A DNA stretch of 64,000 nt from Synechococcus sp. A15-62 (GTDB lineage: Bacteria; Cyanobacteriota; Cyanobacteriia; PCC-6307; Cyanobiaceae): assembly GCF_014280075.1 (NCBI RefSeq), contig NZ_CP047950.1, positions 1,426,001 through 1,490,000 of the forward strand, given 5' to 3'. The notes beneath the pieces were generated by a model. It saw nothing but the letters and a program-made list of their open reading frames with translations, was not told where the DNA came from and made no database searches. Numbering within the stretch: position 1 is the first letter of the stretch; every line of letters begins with the position of its first letter. Both the position numbers and the translations under genes were made by a program. Below are positions 25,598 to 64,000 of the stretch, piece by piece.

Positions 25598-25671
25598 CGG
25601 GGAGTGGCGCAGTTTGGTAGCGCGCTTGCTTTGGGAGCAAGATGCCGCAGGTTCGAATCCTGTCTCCCCGA
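25598..25671 (+). tRNA. trnP: tRNA-Pro (UGG)
   Basis: A 74-nt cloverleaf. CGGGGAG pairs with CTCCCCG plus A, the D arm is GCGC-AGTTTGGTA-GCGC, the anticodon stem-loop CTTGC-TTTGGGA-GCAAG has anticodon TGG, and the T loop is GTTCGAATC. A tyrosine integrase gene lies less than 200 bp downstream, the arrangement of elements that insert at tRNA 3' ends. Confidence 0.95.
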
Positions 25672-50803: not shown

Positions 50804-51055
50804 ATGGGTCACTTCGCTAAGCAGCTCAGCGCGCAGGAGATCAAGCAGGGCTACTCCCTGCTCAACTTGATGGAACATCTCGACCGCGAGATGGATCTGC
50901 TCAATCAGCAGCGAATCCGCGTCGGGCCAACAACCCAGGAAGGGCAGCGACTCACCCAGATCAAGCAGAGCCATTTGCGCAAACTGCAGAGCTGCATTAG
51001 CGAACTGAACACCAGTGGCTTCAACGACTGGTTGCTGCACCAGCAGCCTGTATAA
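50804..51055 (+). CDS. Small host protein whose 3' end is the attachment site
   Basis: 83 residues (SAQEIKQGYSLLNLMEHLDR, EMDLLNQQRIRVGPTTQEGQ), helical and hydrophilic, ending NDWLLHQQPV. The last seven codons lie in the 20-bp repeat that is found again at 63779. There the sequence continues CC-TAA, so the undisturbed gene would end HQQPA. The element supplies G-TA-TAA instead, so only the last residue changes (Ala to Val). The gene itself is intact. Family not recognised. Confidence 0.75.
   Translation: MGHFAKQLSAQEIKQGYSLLNLMEHLDREMDLLNQQRIRVGPTTQEGQRLTQIKQSHLRKLQSCISELNTSGFNDWLLHQQPV
51031..51050 (+). repeat. attL core (20-bp direct repeat)
   Basis: GTTGCTGCACCAGCAGCCTG, identical to 63779-63798. 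Within it GCTGC-ACCA-GCAGC is an inverted repeat with a 4-nt centre, the layout of integrase core sites. It covers the last codons of the host gene. Confidence 0.88.
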
Positions 51056-51150: not shown

Positions 51151-51169
51151 TTTGGCACAGCTTTGGCAC
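51151..51169 (+). promoter_or_regulatory. Paired arm-type sites, left end
   Basis: TTTGGCAC occurs at 51151 and 51162, exactly one helical turn (11 bp) apart, between attL and the integrase start. The same pair with the same spacing occurs at the right end. A nearby inverted repeat GGTGTCA...TGACACC (51128-51150) abuts the pair. Proposed to bind the integrase N-terminal domain or a regulator. Confidence 0.65.
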
Positions 51170-51176
51170 GCTTCAG

Positions 51177-52370
51177 GTGGCAACCGGCCTCATTCACTTG
51201 CCCCGCGTTTCTGAGACAGAAAGCTGGATCAAGCCCTTCCGCCGTCAGATCGCAGAGACCTGCGGAGAGAGCTGGTACGTCCGCAACAACCGCGGCCGGA
51301 TTCGCTTAGTAGTCCGTGATGCGGGGACTGTTTCACTCCCGTTTGAGTGGACTGCGCGTGGTTCTGCGCTTGCGTTGCCCCGCATCCAACAGATCTTCAA
51401 GCGCTGGAACGGTGGACAGATCACCCTTGCCGCGGCCGCACAAAACGCCGACACCTCCAGCAGTCACCAGAAGCTGGATTTCAGTCAGTTAATCGAGACT
51501 TACCGGGAGTTCGTCCCCAACGCTGGCGACAAGACCTGGGAGGGCTTTTATCTGCCTGTGCTGCGCAACTGCGCCAAGGCATTCGAAGGCCGACCCCCAG
51601 TGGACGGTGAAGCGTTAGCGATGCAATGCCTGGCCCAATGGGAACAGGGCACAAGAATGCGCCAGATGTGCCGGCAGAAGCTCTACAGCTTCCTGAACTG
51701 GGCGGTGCAACGCGGACACCTAAAGCCCATTTACAGCCCCCCTGCGACGCTCCCAGAGACCCTGAAGCCAAAGCGCATCGGTTACCCCCTCAGTGATGCG
51801 CAGATCCTCCAGATCCTCGACAACCTGCCTCAGGGTGAAAAGCACAACCGCTGGCGGTTCGCCATTCAGCTCTGTTCCGTCTACGGCCTGCGCCCTGAGG
51901 AGTTGCGGTATCTCCGGATTAAGGACGGAGCAAACGGGGCAGAACTCTGGACGATTTATCAGAAGTCGATGGGGGGAACGAAGGGAGCCAAGACGCAACC
52001 GCGCAGGCTGCACCCCTTGTTGGTGCGCGATGCAGATGGGTCTGCGATCAACTGGAACCTACAAAGCCGATTGCAGGTGGGCGAGAAATTGCCGCCGTTG
52101 AACAGTGAAGGCAACGGCAGCGAGGCATTAAGTCGTTATCTGCGCCGGCGGACGGTTTGGTTGTCGATGCGTGAAGACGCCAAGCGACAGGGTGAGCAGC
52201 TCACCCCCTATTCATTCCGGCATCGCTACGCCAAGGGGATGCACGCTGCCAATATCCCCATCGCCAACATCAGCGAGGCAATGGGGCACACCATCGAAGT
52301 GCACCTGAAGAGCTACGCCCGGTTCAAGCCAAACGCGACGGCAGACCTCGTGGCAGCGGTCAACGCCTGA
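51177..52370 (+). CDS. Tyrosine recombinase (integrase 2)
   Basis: 397 residues. Catalytic residues: Arg in YGLRPEELRYL near 239, H-x-x-R in YSFRHRYAKG near 348, His in MGHTIEVH and nucleophile Tyr in LKSYARF near 379. The N-terminal part includes a SAM-like core-binding domain (LIETYREFVPNAGDKTWEGF). It is homologous to integrase 1 at 25860. It starts with GTG right after the arm sites and points into the element. All catalytic residues are present, so the element is probably mobile. Confidence 0.93.
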   Translation: MATGLIHLPRVSETESWIKPFRRQIAETCGESWYVRNNRGRIRLVVRDAGTVSLPFEWTARGSALALPRIQQIFKRWNGGQITLAAAAQNADTSSSHQKLDFSQLIETYREFVPNAGDKTWEGFYLPVLRNCAKAFEGRPPVDGEALAMQCLAQWEQGTRMRQMCRQKLYSFLNWAVQRGHLKPIYSPPATLPETLKPKRIGYPLSDAQILQILDNLPQGEKHNRWRFAIQLCSVYGLRPEELRYLRIKDGANGAELWTIYQKSMGGTKGAKTQPRRLHPLLVRDADGSAINWNLQSRLQVGEKLPPLNSEGNGSEALSRYLRRRTVWLSMREDAKRQGEQLTPYSFRHRYAKGMHAANIPIANISEAMGHTIEVHLKSYARFKPNATADLVAAVNA

Positions 52371-52710: not shown

Positions 52711-52965
52711 TCAGAGGATTCCGAGAGGACCCTTCTTCTTCTTGCAGTAGCCCATGCCGATGTTCATCCAGCCCTCAAGGCATGCCTTGCCGTGGGTTGG
52801 AGCTACCTCGTAGTAGATGGGCGAGACGCAGGTGTTTCCCAGCGTGTTGACGTAGCCCAGTGGGCACTGATCGTGGCCTTCAGCCTTGGGGATCTCCTTC
52901 TGGGCAAGCGCAGGTGAGGTCGACGCCAGCAATAGAGCAGCGGTAAGCAAAGCCTTCATCGTCAT
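52711..52965 (-). CDS. Small secreted Cys-rich protein
   Basis: 84 residues: signal peptide KALLTAALLLASTSPALAQ, then DQCPLGYVNTLGNTCVSPIY, GKACLEGWMNIGMGYCKKKK. The four cysteines in CPxGY-x-C / CxxGW-x-C repeats suggest an extracellular disulfide-rich module. Unknown family. Confidence 0.65.
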   Translation of the reverse strand: MTMKALLTAALLLASTSPALAQKEIPKAEGHDQCPLGYVNTLGNTCVSPIYYEVAPTHGKACLEGWMNIGMGYCKKKKGPLGIL

Positions 52966-53029
52966 CTTGAGGAAACAACTCGGATGATCACACCAAGGAT
53001 CGGGGCTATCAACCTGACCAGAACACCAA

Positions 53030-53344
53030 TCACTCTGTGATCTCAGGCCAAACGGCTCGGCAACCAGGGCTCCGCTCTAAGGCGATTTTCTTTGCCTGTC
53101 TCGCGAGGTCTTCGCCGAGATAGTCACCCTTGATCAGCGCCATCAGCCGAAGTAGCGCCTTGCTGGCTTGCTCTTCGCTGAGCCAACCAATGTCGTAAAA
53201 GGTGCAGGTGGAGTTCAGCCAACCCTGAGCCTCACCTCGGAGTTCGATCTCGAAGTCATCGAGAGGCGGAAGTGCCATTGCCGGGGAGACTCCCCACAAA
53301 GCAGAGGCCGCAACTAGCGAAGCAAGCTGAGCTTTCATCTTCAT
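53030..53344 (-). CDS. Secreted small protein
   Basis: 104 residues from the ATG before KMKAQLASLVAASALWGVSP (signal peptide). The mature part has EAQGWLNSTCTFYDIGWLSE and ALERSPGCRAVWPEITE, with two cysteines. This region resembles small cyanobacterial periplasmic proteins with a helical core. It is the last gene of a three-gene operon and overlaps the previous gene by one base. Confidence 0.6.
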   Translation of the reverse strand: MKMKAQLASLVAASALWGVSPAMALPPLDDFEIELRGEAQGWLNSTCTFYDIGWLSEEQASKALLRLMALIKGDYLGEDLARQAKKIALERSPGCRAVWPEITE

Positions 53345-53505
53345 CAGAAGAGGAAGTAGCCGATCAGCAAGCCAATGACGATGCCTTTCACCCAGACGAG
53401 AGCTGCCATTTGGTACTCCGTAAGGCCGAGCTTCTTCTTGATCCAAAGGAAGGCTTGCTCGTCAGCGAACAAGACTGCACGAATAGGCCGGACGATCCAA
53501 TCCAT
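53344..53505 (-). CDS. Small membrane protein
   Basis: 53 residues (DWIVRPIRAVLFADEQAFLW, IKKKLGLTEYQMAALVWVKG) ending with a helix IVIGLLIGYFLF. One-base TGATG overlaps with both neighbours show tight coupling in a three-gene run, 53756 to 53030. Confidence 0.6.
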   Translation of the reverse strand: MDWIVRPIRAVLFADEQAFLWIKKKLGLTEYQMAALVWVKGIVIGLLIGYFLF

Positions 53506-53756
53506 CACTGACCCGCCAGGTTGAGGTACTTGCTGATGTCGCCGCCGTTGCACCAGTGAACGGCCACAGGTCGCTCGATGAATCCGCCCTTCCCGTCTTC
53601 GTCGAGGAACTCAAAACCAGACAGGTTGACGATCCCTGTCTCTGCATTCTTCACGCAGTTCATGAACTCCTTGGACTGCTTCGCCATCGGTGCCATCAAG
53701 ACAAGAGCCCCAAGGACAGCCGCCCCGATCAGACCCTTTTCAACATTGAGCTGCAT
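53505..53756 (-). CDS. Membrane-anchored small protein (paralogue of 39818)
   Basis: 83 residues from the ATG before QLNVEKGLIGAAVLGALVLM, giving a signal anchor as in the paralogue, then KEFMNCVKNAETGIVNLSGF, FLDEDGKGGFIERPVAVHWC and NGGDISKYLNLAGQ. About 60 percent identical by eye to the protein at 39818, linking this element with the decayed island. Two conserved cysteines. Function unknown. Confidence 0.7.
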   Translation of the reverse strand: MQLNVEKGLIGAAVLGALVLMAPMAKQSKEFMNCVKNAETGIVNLSGFEFLDEDGKGGFIERPVAVHWCNGGDISKYLNLAGQ

Positions 53757-53860
53757 GCAAGTCGGCGATCGCTCCACAGGTTCTAGGGATTGAGTGCATG
53801 TATGACTACCTTCCTCTTGCCATGCGGAATTAACTGACACCACTCCCCAAAAGGCTTCCC

Positions 53861-54071: not shown

Positions 54072-55307
54072 TTGGCTGTGACCGAACTCTCGCCCCTGGT
54101 TTCAACCACCACGGGTTTTCTGGTGTTGTTCGTTGGTAAACGCTTGAACCGCGAACTCAAGGTATTGCGGGACTATTCGATTCCAGAGCCTGTGTCCGGA
54201 GGACTTCTCGTCGCCATCCTTTTGACACTGCTTCACGTAATGGGCGGGCCCGAACTCAATTTCAACCTGGATTCGAGGGACTTTCTTCTTGTTTATTTCT
54301 TCACCACGGTGGGGATGAATGCCCGCTTCAGCGATTTAAGACGCGGCGGCCCGGCACTGTTCATTCTTTTGGGTCTGACCATCGGCTACATGACGTTGCA
54401 GAACATCATTGGCGTCACGATGGCGGGTTTGTTGGGGCTTCATCCCGCCACGGGATTGCTCGTAGGCACGGTGTCACTGATTGGTGGACACGGCACAACG
54501 ATTGCTTGGGCTCCCACCTTTGCAGAGAACTTCCAGATTGACAGCGCCCTGGAAATCGGAATTGCTGCTGCCACCTTTGGTCTCGTTCTTGCCAGTGCCA
54601 GCGGCGGTCCAATTGCCCAGTTCCTGATTCGTCGTTTTCAGATTCCCTGCCCCAGCACAAAGCCTGAAAATCAACCCCTGACGGACTCAGTCAAGGACAA
54701 GCAAGATCAGTTTTCTGGAAGGAAGCAGATCGACATGACCTCCTTCCTTGCAGCCCTCTTGGCCATCAATATCTGCATCATCTCCGGCATGGTGCTGAAC
54801 GGCGGCATCGCCCATATGGGCTTGAAGCTGCCTTTATTTGTGCCCTGTCTACTGGTCGGCATTCTCTATTCGAATCTGCTCCCAGAGAAACGTTCTGAGC
54901 GAGCCGTCTTCCATTGGCCAAAACATTCCACTTCGCTGGATTTGATCAGCGAACTTTCATTGGGAATCTTCTTGGCCATGTCCCTAATGAGCTTGCAACT
55001 TTGGACCTTGGTCGGCCTCGCCCTGCCTTTGCTGGTCATCCTCTTGACGCAGTTCATCGTCGCTCTGGCCGTCAATCTGCTGCTGGTATTCCGACTGATG
55101 GGAAGGTCCTATGACGCAGCTGTCATCTGCGCAGGCTTTGGCGGGATCGCTCTGGGGTCCACACCAACGGCCATGGCCAACATGACCGCAGTGACGCAGC
55201 AGTACGGCGCTTCGACGAGAGCATTCTTAATCGTTCCCTTGGTCTCTGCTTTTTTCCTGGATCTCGTCAATGCAGTCCTGATACCCGGTTTTATCGGGCA
55301 GCTCTAA
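54072..55307 (+). CDS. gltS: Sodium/glutamate symporter GltS
   Basis: 411 residues, about ten membrane helices. The family's two reentrant-loop halves show as VGTVSLIGGHGTTIAWAPTF in the N-half and CAGFGGIALGSTPTAMANMT in the C-half, each with the GG-x-x-T type motif. The middle linker is hydrophilic. GltS takes up glutamate with sodium across the inner membrane. The TTG start gives a slightly short N-terminus. On a mobile element this is a nutrient-uptake cargo gene. Confidence 0.9.
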   Translation: MAVTELSPLVSTTTGFLVLFVGKRLNRELKVLRDYSIPEPVSGGLLVAILLTLLHVMGGPELNFNLDSRDFLLVYFFTTVGMNARFSDLRRGGPALFILLGLTIGYMTLQNIIGVTMAGLLGLHPATGLLVGTVSLIGGHGTTIAWAPTFAENFQIDSALEIGIAAATFGLVLASASGGPIAQFLIRRFQIPCPSTKPENQPLTDSVKDKQDQFSGRKQIDMTSFLAALLAINICIISGMVLNGGIAHMGLKLPLFVPCLLVGILYSNLLPEKRSERAVFHWPKHSTSLDLISELSLGIFLAMSLMSLQLWTLVGLALPLLVILLTQFIVALAVNLLLVFRLMGRSYDAAVICAGFGGIALGSTPTAMANMTAVTQQYGASTRAFLIVPLVSAFFLDLVNAVLIPGFIGQL

Positions 55308-55406: not shown

Positions 55407-56108
55407 TTAAATGCCTGCTCTGATGGCAATGAGAGCAAGTTTCACTCTGTCTGTCTCGCCAACTTTTTGACGGATTGCTCGAAGGTGGCTCTTGCATGTC
55501 TCCTCTGAGATGAAAAGCTCTTCGGCTATATCGCTGTTGCCGAGTCCTCTGCCTACTTGAGTCAGCACCGCTCGTTCTTTGTCAGTCAGCTCGGCGATGG
55601 TGGCAAGAGCGCCTTTGTCGGCTCCGCTGTTGACGATGCAGCTCACGGCTGGAGATAGCCACACACCGCCTTGAGCAACAGTCGATATTGCCTGAAGAAA
55701 GCTGCCTTCTCCGCTGAGGCCGATACCGCTTCGGAAGACAAGTCCGTTAACTCCCGCATCTTCTGCCTCCATCACGAGGTCATTGTTTTCGCGTGAGGTG
55801 AGGACGAGCGTTTTCAGATGCCGGAACTCCATTGCAAGAGCGATGCCGCTTCCCGCTTCAGGAACATCGTCAGTGATGAGGAAGTCGGCGAACGTCTCGT
55901 TCAGCAGCTCCTTGGCCTCAGCCGTTGTCGTTGCTCCTCCAACCACGTGGTCTCTGATGGCTTCGACGTTGCAGAAGCTCGCCAGTTCAAGCTTCGAGCC
56001 GAGACACACGACGAGCTTCGAACTGCCGAGAGCCTCCTTCAGTCGTGAGGCAATAAGACCAGTTGTTTTGTCGTCGAGAGCGAGCTTCACCTTCAAGGCG
56101 ACTGACAC
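55407..56108 (-). CDS. LuxR-family transcriptional regulator
   Basis: 233 residues. The C-terminal HTH is canonical: LTDKERAVLTQVGRGLGNSD, IAEELFISEETCKSHLRAIR and QKVGETDRVKLALIAIRAG. The N-terminal part looks receiver-like (ADFLITDDVPEAGSGIALAM), so it is a NarL-type regulator; whether a true phospho-acceptor Asp is present is uncertain. It is convergent with gltS and divergent from the secreted-protein genes downstream, which it may control. Confidence 0.85.
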   Translation of the reverse strand: MSVALKVKLALDDKTTGLIASRLKEALGSSKLVVCLGSKLELASFCNVEAIRDHVVGGATTTAEAKELLNETFADFLITDDVPEAGSGIALAMEFRHLKTLVLTSRENNDLVMEAEDAGVNGLVFRSGIGLSGEGSFLQAISTVAQGGVWLSPAVSCIVNSGADKGALATIAELTDKERAVLTQVGRGLGNSDIAEELFISEETCKSHLRAIRQKVGETDRVKLALIAIRAGI

Positions 56109-57837: not shown

Positions 57838-58527
57838 ATGTCCAACCTCTTCACCAAAGTCCTTTTCCCCCACAAAGAAGAGACCTTCCGCAAATCCTCC
57901 TCACGGATGAGCCATCTGAATGAGCTGTTCTGTGAGGGATGGATGTATCTCGGTGGCTCAAAGGAAAACCTGCCGACCCTCAACTGGCTCTCCAATCAGG
58001 ACTCCAGCGTCAGCTTCCACTGGGAAGCCGAGCGGTACATCTCGTGCCACTACTCGATCAACAGGAGCAAGGTTTCCTGCCGGGAGTTCCCTGACGAGAA
58101 CCTCGACATCGATTTCGAGAACGACCTCGGGACTGCTGTCCAGCATCTGCACATGATCGCCACTCAAGCGGTGGACGATTGCTGGCCCTTTGTGTTGACC
58201 GAAGAGGAGCGCACCAGGCTGAACAGGTTCATCGCTCGCCATCTCAACGCTGAGTTTCGTGAGCTGCTGGACTTCACTGAAGACGTCCTCCCCCTTAAGG
58301 AAGAAACTGGCGACCTCTCCGATGAGGACTTCGCCTCCATCGTTGAGCTGGCTGGCGGTCAGGAGTCCTACAAGGACCTGATCGTGTGGGCTTCTGAGCG
58401 GCTGCCTCAAGCAGAGATCCAACGCTTCGATGACGTTGTCGAGAGCGGCAACACCGAGGCCATCAAGATCGGCGTGCGTGCTCTGCTCCAGCAGCGCCTC
58501 GCCGCTCAAGCAGTGGGGCAGGGCTGA
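57838..58527 (+). CDS. T7-type phage scaffolding-domain protein
   Basis: 229 residues. The C-terminal part FASIVELAGGQESYKDLIVW, ASERLPQAEIQRFDDVVESG and IKIGVRALLQQ matches the conserved end of T7-like scaffolding (capsid assembly) proteins: an AGG-x-E-x-(Y/F) motif, then a W-A helix, an acidic D/N turn and a K-x-x-(I/V) helix. The T7 protein itself has IEYAGGRERFDAL and TVKAIINLA in these places. The first 140 residues are unlike phage scaffolds. In T7-like phages scaffold binds the capsid protein, so a satellite copy could redirect or resize capsids. No other capsid gene is on the element. Confidence 0.7.
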   Translation: MSNLFTKVLFPHKEETFRKSSSRMSHLNELFCEGWMYLGGSKENLPTLNWLSNQDSSVSFHWEAERYISCHYSINRSKVSCREFPDENLDIDFENDLGTAVQHLHMIATQAVDDCWPFVLTEEERTRLNRFIARHLNAEFRELLDFTEDVLPLKEETGDLSDEDFASIVELAGGQESYKDLIVWASERLPQAEIQRFDDVVESGNTEAIKIGVRALLQQRLAAQAVGQG

Positions 58528-59237
58528 TGGATAAATGTGCTTTTTACCTCGTCCGGGATCACTACAGCGGTGCTATGAAGATCGGCATCTCGAAGCACCC
58601 TCAGAAGCGTCTCTCGCAGATTGCGGCTCATTACGCCGTTGGCAGGGTCAGCCTCATCAAGACCACTTGGTTTACTACGCGAGATGCGGCGCGTAGCTGG
58701 GAATCGAACTTCCATAAGCGCTACCGGATACACCGTTCACCGGAACAAGGCGGACGCGAATGGTTTGATCTCACTGATGCTCAGATTCAGGGCTTCGTCG
58801 AATGGATGGAAGCCAGCACTAATCAGCGTGCAATCAAGATCATCAAGGTCCAGGCAAAGGCTGAGAAGAGCGAAAAGGAATTATCTGCTGATCGATGGAG
58901 CGGATTTTGGAGCGGTGCACTCGTTTCACTTTTTACCGGCATCGTCCCAGGCATTGGCTACGCGATAACAGGTGGGCAACCCGTTGGGATATTCCTTGCT
59001 CCTGCAGCTGTTGGTGCATATGCGGCCTCTAGGACCAAGAAGATCAAGACGCTTTCGCAGGCTTATCAACTCGACGGTCAACCGTTGGGTTCGGTCGCTC
59101 TAGAGCGCGAATACAAGGTGATGGGGCTCTGGGACGAGCGCACTTACGCACTTAGTGGAGTGAAGTCGTCCACCTGGAAACTCCCTGAAGCAACTACTGC
59201 TGAACAAGCCCAGCGTTTCTTCGAGAGCAGCAGGTGA
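58527..59237 (+). CDS. GIY-YIG (T5orf172-like) domain fused to membrane domain
   Basis: 236 residues. Residues 5-95 carry a GIY-YIG variant: FYLVRDHYSGAMKIGISKHP with K-I-G-I-S, RLSQIAAHYAVG, a helix with W-E-S-N-F-H-K-R-Y, and REWFDLT, as in T5orf172/MUG113 nucleases. The C-terminal half has a Gly-rich membrane hairpin (LVSLFTGIVPGIGYAITGGQ, GIFLAPAAVGAYAA) and a soluble tail. Overlaps the scaffold-like gene by one base. A nuclease linked to a membrane segment suggests interference or defence, but this is inference. Confidence 0.72.
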   Translation: MDKCAFYLVRDHYSGAMKIGISKHPQKRLSQIAAHYAVGRVSLIKTTWFTTRDAARSWESNFHKRYRIHRSPEQGGREWFDLTDAQIQGFVEWMEASTNQRAIKIIKVQAKAEKSEKELSADRWSGFWSGALVSLFTGIVPGIGYAITGGQPVGIFLAPAAVGAYAASRTKKIKTLSQAYQLDGQPLGSVALEREYKVMGLWDERTYALSGVKSSTWKLPEATTAEQAQRFFESSR

Positions 59238-61376: not shown

Positions 61377-61703
61377 TTAATTACCCTTTAGCAGCCTTGT
61401 GAGTTGAGCCTGAAGCTTCAAGGCACCAACGGCATTTGAGTGATGCTTGCTTCGGATGCTGGCTTCGATGATTTCGTCCAGTAGGGCTAGACGCGTGCCA
61501 AGGAAGTCAGAACGCTCCACGCAATAATCCGCCTTGATGATCTCTCGGGCACGTTGCAGGTACGTCTCGGCTTGTCGCTTCTGTACCCCCCATTCTTCCG
61601 TGCAGAATCGCAGGATGTAGCTGTTTGTTTTCGCCGACGACAGCAGTTTGACGACGGTATGAATCCGCCGATCAATTTCTGCTTTGTCTGACTTTTTCAC
61701 CAT
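61377..61703 (-). CDS. Terminase small subunit-like protein
   Basis: 108 residues: AEIDRRIHTVVKLLSSAKTN, EWGVQKRQAETYLQRAREII, LGTRLALLDEIIEASIRSKH and AVGALKLQAQLTRLLKG. An N-terminal HTH with W-G-V-x-x-R-Q-x-x-x-Y, followed by an oligomerisation hairpin R-x-x-L-x-x-L-(D/E) and a final AL-x-L-x-x-x-L-x-x-L-L-x-G, is the layout of small terminases that recognise viral DNA for packaging. No large subunit is on the element, as in capsid-hijacking satellites. Some small regulators share this pattern, so it is not certain. Confidence 0.6.
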   Translation of the reverse strand: MVKKSDKAEIDRRIHTVVKLLSSAKTNSYILRFCTEEWGVQKRQAETYLQRAREIIKADYCVERSDFLGTRLALLDEIIEASIRSKHHSNAVGALKLQAQLTRLLKGN

Positions 61704-61707
61704 TGCT

Positions 61708-62934
61708 TCATTCTGTCAGGGAACAATTAGGCAGCGCGGTTGTTTCCGATAGGGGGGGTTGGGGGGAAGTACAAAAAGTCTTCTCTGCGTATGCATATTT
61801 CGGGCGACCACCAGTGGAGGCAAGGGTCTGTCTGCTGAGCTTGTCCTCTACGAACAAGCCCTTCAAAACCCGATAGGCGTGCCTTTCGGCGCAGCCCAGC
61901 TCGCGCTGGATGTCCTCAACCTTCCAGTAGCGGTCACTCCCTGCCATCAACGCCAGCGCCTGTTCCGCGAAATGGCTTCGTTGCTTTGGAGTCATGTCCC
62001 CCTCATTCGCTGAGCCTTTCAGAAGGAACGAGTAGTCCTCTTCGTTTCCCTCCAGATTCCATGCCGTGCCGTCCGCGCAGGTGCGTCCTTTCACGCACTG
62101 CAACCGCATCTGAATGTTCTGGTCCGGCTGCTGCTGATAAAGCCTCCAAATCCCCCAAACATCACTGGCGGCCCAGCCCTGACTGGCTGCGCCAAAGACG
62201 GAATCCAGGGTGATGGCGTTGGTCGTTGAGTCCTTGCTCTGCTTCCTGAGGTGGGCGCTCATCACCACGGCAACGCGGTTTTCAGAAGCCCATGTGTTCA
62301 GTGGATAGAGATCGAATCCAAACTCCGCATCGTTCATGCTCGGGCCATCTGGTCTGCCAGCACCCAAAAGCGTCGTGATGCTGTCCAGGACGATCAGGTC
62401 GTAGTGCTCTTGCTCCTGAAGAGCCCTGAGCTTGGAAACGTCTAAGAACTCCCAGTCAGTGAGCAGATGGAACTCAGCTTTGACACCCATGACCTTGAGC
62501 TTGTCGGCTGCGTTCTCGGGGCTTTCGTCGGACTGGATGAAACAGACCTTGCCTCTCTTGGTCGTGAGCTGACCCATGAAGTCCGAGCCGTTGGAGACGG
62601 CTTCCGCCAACCCATAGAGAAGCGAGCTTTTTCCTGACCCTGAAGCCCCAGCAAGCAAGGTCAGCCGACCACGCGGGATGAACTGGTCAGCAATCCAATC
62701 CGTGGCCTCGCGCGTCTTCAGGACGTCCTTGGCGGACTGGATGGGGACTTTTTGAACATCCCCCTGACACCCCCCATCAGACAAATGTCCCCTGGAAGTT
62801 TGGCGCGCTGTTTGAAGAGTCTTGGAATAAAAGCCCTCTTGCATTTTTGAAGGCGAGAGGAGCGCATCAGCAGGCAACTTCCCCATCTCAATCAACGTTT
62901 GAAAAGACGTTCTTTCATCTCCCTGATCCCTCAT
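61708..62934 (-). CDS. RepA/RecA-like helicase (AAA_25) with winged helix
   Basis: 408 residues. The ATPase core (about residues 75-280) has Walker A LLAGASGSGKSS and Walker B YDLIVLDSITTLLGAG, then a sensor region VVMSAHLRKQSKDSTT, as in RSF1010 RepA and satellite/phage RepA-like helicases. The C-terminal part (RYWKVEDIQRELGCAERHAY) is a winged helix. It is probably the replication helicase of the element. It lies 4 bp upstream of the TerS-like gene and overlaps the HTH gene by 4 nt. Confidence 0.85.
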   Translation of the reverse strand: MRDQGDERTSFQTLIEMGKLPADALLSPSKMQEGFYSKTLQTARQTSRGHLSDGGCQGDVQKVPIQSAKDVLKTREATDWIADQFIPRGRLTLLAGASGSGKSSLLYGLAEAVSNGSDFMGQLTTKRGKVCFIQSDESPENAADKLKVMGVKAEFHLLTDWEFLDVSKLRALQEQEHYDLIVLDSITTLLGAGRPDGPSMNDAEFGFDLYPLNTWASENRVAVVMSAHLRKQSKDSTTNAITLDSVFGAASQGWAASDVWGIWRLYQQQPDQNIQMRLQCVKGRTCADGTAWNLEGNEEDYSFLLKGSANEGDMTPKQRSHFAEQALALMAGSDRYWKVEDIQRELGCAERHAYRVLKGLFVEDKLSRQTLASTGGRPKYAYAEKTFCTSPQPPLSETTALPNCSLTE

Positions 62935-63233
62935 GACCCTGCCCTCACACTCGGGTCATTGCTGAAGGTCTCAATGGAATCCTGTTTTTCCTTTCTGAGA
63001 GCGGCACGACGCTGGGCTTCAGCCGCCACCATTTCCTTGGTGCGCTGCGCCATTGATTCACGGATGGCCGTGACGTTGTAAGTGACGGGACCGTTGGGGG
63101 TGCCGGTCGCGTAAATCCAATGCGTGCCAGGTTCCAACCTGCGATCACGCCGCATGGTGCGGATGGTGCTGTTTTTAATTGCCAGAAGCTCTGCTGCTTC
63201 GGACTCAGCCACCCATTGCTGGGGGGTATCCAT
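62931..63233 (-). CDS. Excisionase-like HTH protein
   Basis: 100 residues with an N-terminal helix-turn-helix (QQWVAESEAAELLAIKNSTI, RTMRRDRRLEPGTHWIYATG) and a basic coiled tail (QRTKEMVAAEAQRRAALRKE). The pattern WVAESEAAELL...GTHW...PNGPVTYN is shared with the protein at 27294. It is probably the directionality factor or repressor. First or second gene of the minus-strand replication operon. Confidence 0.65.
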   Translation of the reverse strand: MDTPQQWVAESEAAELLAIKNSTIRTMRRDRRLEPGTHWIYATGTPNGPVTYNVTAIRESMAQRTKEMVAAEAQRRAALRKEKQDSIETFSNDPSVRAGS

Positions 63234-63242
63234 TAAGAGGGC

Positions 63243-63707
63243 TCAGTTAGATCCCTTCGCCTTGGCAGCCATCCTGTCCAGCGTTTCCATGGTCACCTTG
63301 TTGGCGAGCAGGAATTCAGTGGGCTTTGCGTTAGCTGCAATGCACTTTTCCCAAGTCTCCTGAGAGACCTGGAAAGTCACGCCTTCCCACCGAAACAGTC
63401 GGAGGGATTTTTTGTGGTGACGAGAAGGACGAGGCAAGTTCTGAGCTTCCAGAGAAGGGGTGAACAGAACCGCCTTTGCAACTCCTAAAGCAGAGCCAGC
63501 GTCTTTTTCAACGCACCATCCGCATGGCTGGCAGATGGGTAGGGACCAGGGCCAAGACCCCGGCAAGCCACATATCAGGGAGCTGCCTAAGCAGTGCTTT
63601 AAGCGTGGACTATCAGTGAACCCATCGTCGAGCTGTCGCGTAGACGTGTCAACAGGTGGCAGAAAAGTCGTGCCAAAGGGATCAATTCTTCCAGCGGATT
63701 TTGGCAC
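63243..63707 (-). CDS. Hypothetical protein at the right end
   Basis: 154 residues read from a GTG at 63707 that lies inside an arm-type repeat. The C-terminal part (LRLFRWEGVTFQVSQETWEK, CIAANAKPTEFLLANKVTME) looks well folded, while the first 80 residues are low-complexity with many Cys, Pro and Ser; the true start may be further in. Probably the first gene of the minus-strand operon; unknown function. Confidence 0.5.
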   Translation of the reverse strand: MPKSAGRIDPFGTTFLPPVDTSTRQLDDGFTDSPRLKHCLGSSLICGLPGSWPWSLPICQPCGWCVEKDAGSALGVAKAVLFTPSLEAQNLPRPSRHHKKSLRLFRWEGVTFQVSQETWEKCIAANAKPTEFLLANKVTMETLDRMAAKAKGSN

Positions 63708-63718
63708 TTATTTGGCAC
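63670..63718 (+). promoter_or_regulatory. Arm-type sites, right end
   Basis: TTTGGCAC occurs at 63700 and 63711, again 11 bp apart, and once in reverse at 63670-63677. The pair mirrors the left-end pair at 51151 and 51162. Proposed integrase arm sites. Confidence 0.6.
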
Positions 63719-63778: not shown

Positions 63779-63798
63779 GTTGCTGCACCAGCAGCCTG
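63779..63798 (+). repeat. attR core (20-bp direct repeat)
   Basis: Identical to 51031-51050. It is followed by CCTAA, which restores the ancestral end (Ala-stop) of the host gene at 50804 if the element is removed. Confidence 0.88.
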
Positions 63799-63842: not shown

Positions 63843-64000
63843 TTGCCGCTTCCAGTCGTTTATCACCCGCATTACTCCGCGCCGCTGCCGAGCACCCATC
63901 GCTTTCCGATGGCGAAGTTCCGGCTGCTGCATCAACTCCTGCTGGAGCAGGGGGTCGTCCAGGCCGAGGAGGTGCATCGGCCCTTGAGCATCGCCCGCAG
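63843..64000 (+). CDS. Histone deacetylase-family protein (partial, 5' end)
   Basis: The open frame from a TTG codes PLPVVYHPHYSAPLPSTHRF and PMAKFRLLHQLLLEQGVVQA, EEVHRPLSIAR, the N-terminus of AcuC/HDAC-superfamily zinc amidohydrolases (the H-x-Y-S-x-P-L motif and F-P-M-x-K-x-x). It continues past the window end. Start codon is uncertain. It lies 45 bp after attR and would follow the small host gene directly in an unoccupied genome. Confidence 0.8.
   Translation, partial: MPLPVVYHPHYSAPLPSTHRFPMAKFRLLHQLLLEQGVVQAEEVHRPLSIAR

Follow-up and report, generated by a model that had tools for sequence, protein, structure and literature searches.

Among the described systems closest to the locus analysed here are the tycheposons, which the parts of the article covered describe as tRNA-bordered elements of 4-200 kb associated with seven tRNAs (Hackl et al. 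2023, Cell; via PMC10872708). Compared with that description, our element has a tyrosine recombinase, cargo, a picocyanobacterial host, and a length (12.75 kb) within the size range, but it is bordered by a protein-coding gene, here called gene83, and not by a tRNA gene. Picocyanobacterial integrases have also been reported near tRNA-Phe and tRNA-Cys; the available text of that report likewise describes tyrosine recombinase islands of Synechococcus and Prochlorococcus, but at other tRNAs and as a novel subgroup, and it is by this description that we set them apart (PMC10187409). Another paper names island integrases, and the part of its text covered gives no attachment site for them (PMC2441476).

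Integration at the end of a protein gene is itself known, as in the trmE, yicC, and dusA islands (PMC8409611, from the sections covered). As described there, SGI1-type islands also have a tyrosine integrase at the end of a protein gene, and the dusA island also restores the reading frame; the int genes of the SGI1, dusA, and yicC elements lack sequence similarity, so that the change of site in those islands came with another integrase, whereas the family described here appears to have changed site itself. Adaptation of attP is known as well: in the Sa3int staphylococcal phages, according to the portion of the source covered, bases of the attP core shift to match a new attB after secondary-site integration, within a single round, although that was seen in laboratory rounds and livestock isolates and the primary site lies in the hlb gene, not in a tRNA (PMC8649754). 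It has also been suggested that specificity can change by way of secondary sites (Rutkai 2006, cited by PMC8371274 in its covered text). A literature search, in which mostly the openings of abstracts were covered, returned neither the gene83 site nor a tRNA-to-protein-gene switch in picocyanobacteria; a probable natural switch of that kind is the new part of what follows.

The window analysed is a 64,000-nucleotide stretch of the genome of Synechococcus sp. A15-62 (contig NZ_CP047950.1, positions 1,426,001 to 1,490,000; genome G000, a 2.29-Mb single contig). The target gene, the ends of the element, and the native downstream neighbour lie as follows:

50804..51055, + strand: gene83, the 83-aa target gene, its last codon and stop coming from the element
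51031..51050, + strand: attL core GTTGCTGCACCAGCAGCCTG, an exact direct repeat
63779..63798, + strand: attR core, after which CC-TAA gives the original gene83 end
63843..64000, + strand: histone-deacetylase-family (HDAC) gene, the native downstream neighbour (Pfam Hist_deacetyl, 2.3e-55; the match continues past the window)

The original prediction placed a repeat in the 3' end of gene83 and proposed that the element replaces the final residue and supplies the stop codon, and both parts of it were borne out. The two cores are identical over 20 bp (92% agreement over 26 bases) and lie 12,748 bp apart, core to core; with the element, the 83-aa protein ends HQQPV, and without it, the protein would end HQQPA, as the right copy reads CCT GCC TAA with the HDAC gene directly after. 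Relatives without an element were expected to end in QQPA and a stop ahead of the HDAC gene, and this is how G033, G028, G022, and G030 read, with QQQPA in G008; the HDAC match begins 47-51 bases past the gene83 match in all five. When the window flanks were joined, they aligned with the empty sites of five relatives at 83-94% identity over 483-504 bases and with that of a sixth at 74% over 395 bases. A 20-base core probe allowing up to three mismatches matched twice in the window (mean of 0.00 in 100 shuffles) and four times in the whole genome, the attL and attR copies being the best matches. The locus thus has an integrase inside, flanking direct repeats, and intact empty sites in relatives, as expected of an integrative element with a tyrosine recombinase, and its core in the last codons and a frame completed by the element are those of a protein-gene 3'-end island of the trmE/yicC kind.

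gene83 has no match in Pfam, PHROGs, or NCBIfam. It is present in 24 of the 34 genomes of the genus; across the family, 400 genomes including these 34 were searched and 25 matched, with one weak match (E 9e-4) among the 366 genomes outside the genus. The QQPA ending is limited to a sub-group, other genomes ending in ERQMA, ERQLA, and similar. tRNA-Pro and the HDAC gene are present and a gene83 match is absent in five genomes (G001, G003, G029, G014, and G011), which suggests loss or rearrangement of gene83 there.

The contents of the window element that could be named are as follows:

51177..52370, + strand: tyrosine recombinase (integrase), 397 aa (Pfam Phage_integrase, 2e-10; phrog_1 integrase, 2.5e-24)
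52711..53843, - strand: cassette of small open reading frames
54072..55307, + strand: cargo, sodium/glutamate symporter GltS (TIGR00210, 8.8e-129, above cut-off; Pfam PF03616)
55407..56108, - strand: cargo, LuxR-type regulator (Pfam GerE, 5e-14)
58527..59237, + strand: cargo, T5orf172-domain protein (Pfam PF10544, 3.9e-9)
61377..61703, - strand: small element protein (phrog_34910; also in the tRNA-Pro elements of G030, 94%, and G001, 77%)
61708..62934, - strand: AAA_25 ATPase (Pfam AAA_25, 8.9e-22)
62931..63233, - strand: putative excisionase (Xis; weak profile match to phrog_539 excisionase, 9.1e-5)

The integrase and the putative Xis lie at opposite ends of the element (left and right, respectively); matches of the latter to Pfam HTH_17 and DUF1233 were both under cut-off. 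The usual first residue of the HxxR box is histidine; here the box reads YxxR (Y345, R348), as it does in all eight aligned relatives. The AAA_25 ATPase possibly has a role in replication of the element. The cassette of small open reading frames seems to move between different insertions, judging from its 52711-52965 protein, which is matched in the insert of G013 (87%) and next to the tRNA-Pro remnant in G001 (85%). No clear virion or packaging gene was found among the 19 open reading frames of the window element scanned against PHROGs, and in this it differs from a prophage or satellite; the C-terminal 64 aa of the open reading frame at 57838-58527 match head-assembly/scaffolding families (phrog_1052, 2.4e-12), and that frame has no Pfam match.

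We then compared the gene83-to-HDAC interval across the 24 genomes that have gene83. Thirteen are empty, with 41-106 bp between the two genes (341 bp in G024), and five carry att-bounded elements of 3.96 to 17.1 kb:

Element at gene83 in G000: 12.7 kb, integrase open
Element at gene83 in G002: 4.0 kb, no integrase hit
Element at gene83 in G015: 4.3 kb, integrase broken (5 stops), right core decayed and placed by eye
Element at gene83 in G023: 17.1 kb, with tape-measure protein, terminase, and primase-like protein
Element at gene83 in G027: 7.9 kb, integrase 99% identical to that of the window, other cargo

Of the remainder, two carry duplicative inserts (G004 and G013), one is split over contigs (G020), and three (G005, G006, and G019) have gaps of 1.3-2.5 kb between gene83 and the HDAC gene with no integrase hit. 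The contents of the five elements are largely different: GltS is found in the window element and DUF2252 in that of G015, and the elements of G027 and the window have only the integrase, xis, and pieces of three other proteins in common. The gene83 site is a hotspot of att-bounded elements. That part of the original prediction stands; its description of the site as unusual is overstated, given the trmE, yicC, and dusA islands (PMC8409611, in the part covered), and so is its description of gene83 as a conserved gene, this having been found in one genus only.

The inserts of G004 (~5.9 kb) and G013 (~1.4 kb) are flanked by duplications of the end of gene83 and the start of the HDAC gene (296 bp at 100% and 178 bp at 94%, respectively) and their left junctions are alike, both falling at codon 23-24 of the HDAC gene. 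We considered whether these two had used another att-like site within that gene and rejected the idea, as the left junction precedes that motif and the long duplications point to a different mechanism. Inserts of this sort do occur at the site, and the repeat and insert in the window might likewise have come from homologous recombination or duplication with no integrase involved; we find this scarcely credible, since the core of the window element is short and exact, arm repeats flank it, int and xis genes are present, and the same ends enclose different cargo in G027.

With an element in place, gene83 ends in QQPV (G000), QQPA (G002 and G027), QQMAV (G023), or QQPEPA (G015), and empty sites with the exact core (G022, G028, and G030) end in QQPA; in each genome the element brings gene83 to an end in a few codons. 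Selection for sparing gene83, from which the element may benefit, would fit this pattern; by our own estimate, a stop falls within four codons in about 17% of random sequence, and frame restoration is hence no proof of selection. Element presence and the exact core are associated in a Fisher test (5/10 with the core, 0/14 without; p 0.006), which was set aside as evidence, as the element carries part of the core and the test ignores kinship.

A point that the original prediction missed is that the other members of this integrase family, where the site can be read, lie at tRNA-Pro(UGG), which makes the gene83 site look like a derived switch. The window has one such gene:

25598..25671, + strand: tRNA-Pro(UGG), the attachment site of the integrase relatives; the only tRNA-Pro in the window, 25 kb from gene83

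No second tRNA-Pro half was found within the window. GC content falls to 43-45% near 27-31 kb in the ~25-kb interval between tRNA-Pro and gene83 (25700-50700). gene83 starts 0.45 kb from the end of the tRNA-Pro pattern in G021, and the spacing is 1.3 kb in G024, 2.4 kb in G020, 25 kb in G000, and 58 kb in G002.

With the integrase as query, 198 of the 400 family genomes had matches at E 1e-20, and the site was read at 30 fetched loci, these being among the stronger matches; with 21 further loci from a scan of named genomes, whose integrase relatives belong to Synechococcus and Prochlorococcus, 51 loci were read by their left flank. Thirty-six adjoin a tRNA-Pro 3' half, five rows (four of them distinct) lie at gene83, and 10 are truncated or broken with no assigned site. 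Thirty-one of the 36 were assigned by script and five were accepted by eye, three of which the script had marked doubtful and two of which it had missed (L069 and L103, with one changed base each in the loop region); a further doubtful locus, L110, was rejected. At the loci of the relatives, the half-tRNA is a match to the tRNA-Pro(UGG) of the window over its 3' half. G027 aside, the nearest full-length relatives read (G005, G002, G030, G007, G019, and G001; 73-82% identity) are all at tRNA-Pro, with no site assignable for partial relatives in G008 and G016 (78-80%), and so are all relatives at 39-58% identity where assigned, from genomes without a gene83 match. In pairwise comparison, the integrases of G000 and G005 (the latter at tRNA-Pro) are 82% identical, those of G000 and G023 about 60%, and those of G023 and MED650 73%. 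The family was looked for in viral data also: alignment gave no integrase relatives in IMG/VR, tblastn of 50,697 phage records gave no match, and gene83 was not found in viral contigs. The att core matched in nine viral contigs, all of which proved by eye to hold one unrelated prophage gene.

Five tRNA-Pro elements fetched whole (G005, G030, G007, G002b, and G001) measure 9.9-15.5 kb and share one layout, with a tRNA remnant and the integrase at one end and, at the other, a Xis homologue next to the intact tRNA. The Xis homologue lies 0.45-0.68 kb from tRNA-Pro in G001, G002, G005, G007, G017, G019, and G030; homologues were found in 15 of the 34 genomes, several of them being weak matches elsewhere than at tRNA-Pro. 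Within 44 kb of G002 (C1:1548433-1592626) there are three family integrase matches and three tRNA-Pro pattern matches, a run that looks like stacked tRNA-Pro elements. The window element thus resembles the tRNA-Pro(UGG) elements of G005, G002, G007, G030, and G001 in its integrase (73-82%), in a Xis homologue at the far end, in its half-sites, and, for G005 and G002b, in arm spacing; it differs in target, theirs being the tRNA anticodon loop with the centre CCCAA and not GCACC.

In the orientation of the integrase, the core reads CTTGC-TCCCAAA-GCAAG at the tRNA and GTTGC-TGCACCA-GCAGC at gene83, and the two cores point in opposite directions. The half-sites TTGCT and AGCA (TTGCT-N5-AGCA) are common to both, and the 5-bp centre is CCCAA in the tRNA versus GCACC in gene83. 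Differences at the junctions in G002 and G023 place the crossover at gene83 within GTTGCTGCACCA, which is equivalent to the loop. A 7-bp overlap with inverted half-sites is given as the reason why anticodon loops fit the classical att core (review PMC8371274, in the part covered), and, as far as its sequence tells, the gene83 end has that form.

Arm repeats flanking the core are the usual anatomy of a tyrosine-integrase att site. Putative arm-type sites were found on both sides of the window element:

51151..51158, + strand: putative arm-type site TTTGGCAC, left arm, first
51162..51169, + strand: putative arm-type site TTTGGCAC, left arm, second, 11 bp on
63670..63677, - strand: putative arm-type site TTTGGCAC, right arm, inverted
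63700..63707, + strand: putative arm-type site TTTGGCAC, right arm
63711..63718, + strand: putative arm-type site TTTGGCAC, right arm, 11 bp on

These five copies of TTTGGCAC are the only ones in 16.5 kb, and we infer that they, like the core, are bound by the integrase. Counted from the first T of TTGCT, they lie at +119 and +130 on the left and at -110 (inverted), -80, and -69 (direct) on the right. G027 has the same five repeats at equal distances; G023, the integrase of which is 59% identical, has TATGCCAC/TATGACAC in place of TTTGGCAC, with three copies to the left and two to the right. Among the tRNA-Pro elements, G005 (with TTTCGCAC) and G002b (with the window motif, TTTGGCAC) have arm repeats at +119/+130 or +118/+129, at -110 (inverted), and at -80; in G030, G007, and G001, the left repeats are in about the same place and the right repeats are further out.

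The likeness of the two cores might be due to chance, the element having descended from tRNA-Pro elements and evolved a new core specificity of its own for gene83 with no mimicry of the tRNA. The cores agree at 10 of 14 positions, which was equalled by 363 of 20,000 shuffles of the gene83 core (1.8%), and TTGCTN5AGCA matches 50 times in the genome (23 for the reversed control), so the half-sites alone do not explain why the site in use lies near tRNA-Pro; the half-site pattern arose in 6 of 200,000 shuffles, a count to be read knowing that the pattern was chosen after the match had been seen. We nevertheless consider a chance likeness unlikely, as the spacing between half-sites and arm repeats equals that in G005 and G002b and the crossover is confined to the loop-equivalent stretch.

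To place the target change within the family, a tree was built of 34 integrases, of which 28 are at tRNA-Pro, four are at gene83, and two have an unknown site (kept but not counted); the other 17 of the 51 loci were dropped beforehand as duplicates, near-copies, or short or unassigned pieces. The tree is unrooted. The gene83 users fall in two places, one holding G000, G027, and G015 and the other holding G023 with its sister MED650, which is at tRNA-Pro (support 100/100). Well-supported branches force at least two target changes, and parsimony gives two in each of three trees. When the gene83 users were constrained to a single clade, the log-likelihood fell by 140 units (p 1.4e-30) and, with the G015 pseudogene left out, by 129 (p 6e-57); without both MED650 and G015, two changes are still needed and the single clade is not rejected (32.5 units, p 0.12). 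The MED650 integrase is broken and was strung together from four matched pieces, and rejection of one origin depends on it. By part of the integrase, in domain trees of 16 of the 34 rows, the p value of the single clade was 7e-8 for the catalytic half, 0.023 for the N-terminal half, and 0.23 for the first quarter. Convergent residues in the two gene83 lineages were looked for and set aside: G000 shares six private residues with G023 and also six with MED650, at tRNA-Pro, so there is no clear excess, although 12 other control pairs share only 0-4.

These comparisons give good support to a switch from tRNA-Pro to gene83. Two switches are the simplest reading of the tree and probably the correct one, a single origin being less likely; we lean, somewhat beyond an even bet, toward the family having moved from the tRNA-Pro anticodon loop to the neighbouring gene83 on two independent occasions, because the gene83 end happens to hold the same half-sites around another 5-bp centre, so that only the centre of the core had to change. 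As the distant relatives with a readable site are all at tRNA-Pro, that is likely the older target. The opposite polarity, in which gene83 was ancestral or was gained once and the tRNA-Pro users among the close relatives are returns, draws on the unrooted tree giving no direction, on the two sites being neighbours, and on the single clade that survives removal of MED650 and G015. It is very improbable in our view: several returns would be needed, parsimony counts two changes in all three trees, and the relatives at 39-58% identity, with no gene83 found in their genomes, are at tRNA-Pro wherever assigned.

We regard it as probable that the window element descends from a tRNA-Pro(UGG) element and was retargeted to the gene83 end, a mimic of the anticodon stem-loop, by way of a secondary site and a changed attP centre. 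The ancestor would have integrated in the anticodon loop of tRNA-Pro(UGG) and, rarely, at gene83 as a secondary site. A later excision would have left an attP with a gene83-type centre (CCCAA to GCACC); since the gene83 end mimics the anticodon stem-loop, this changed centre would pair with gene83, which would from then on be preferred. The integrase would have kept its preference for the TTGCT/AGCA half-sites, the layout of its arm sites, and the int...xis architecture. Site-specific recombination would then place the element in the final codons of gene83, with bases of the element after the core completing the frame and gene83 left intact except for its last few residues.

Retargeting of this kind is compatible with the window element now being a dead, immobile remnant. 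The copies at gene83 in G002 and G015 have decayed (no integrase hit and five stops, respectively), and some weight is due to the idea, which we think doubtful for the window itself: its integrase is open, its cores are identical over 20 bp, it has five arm repeats, and an integrase 99% identical is found in G027 with other cargo. The element may still be mobile.

Changes of target by tyrosine integrases have so far been mostly inferred from laboratory work on secondary sites. In this family, close relatives survive on either side of the switch, and the empty sites, att ends, and arm sites can be read; with both sides readable, the proposal that the half-sites stay and the centre changes is directly testable. 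The gene83 site is, moreover, a hotspot of gene flux in Synechococcus that tRNA-anchored surveys would miss. If the reading given here is true, the family would provide a natural, repeated switch of target from a tRNA gene to a protein gene that needs only a change in the centre of the core.
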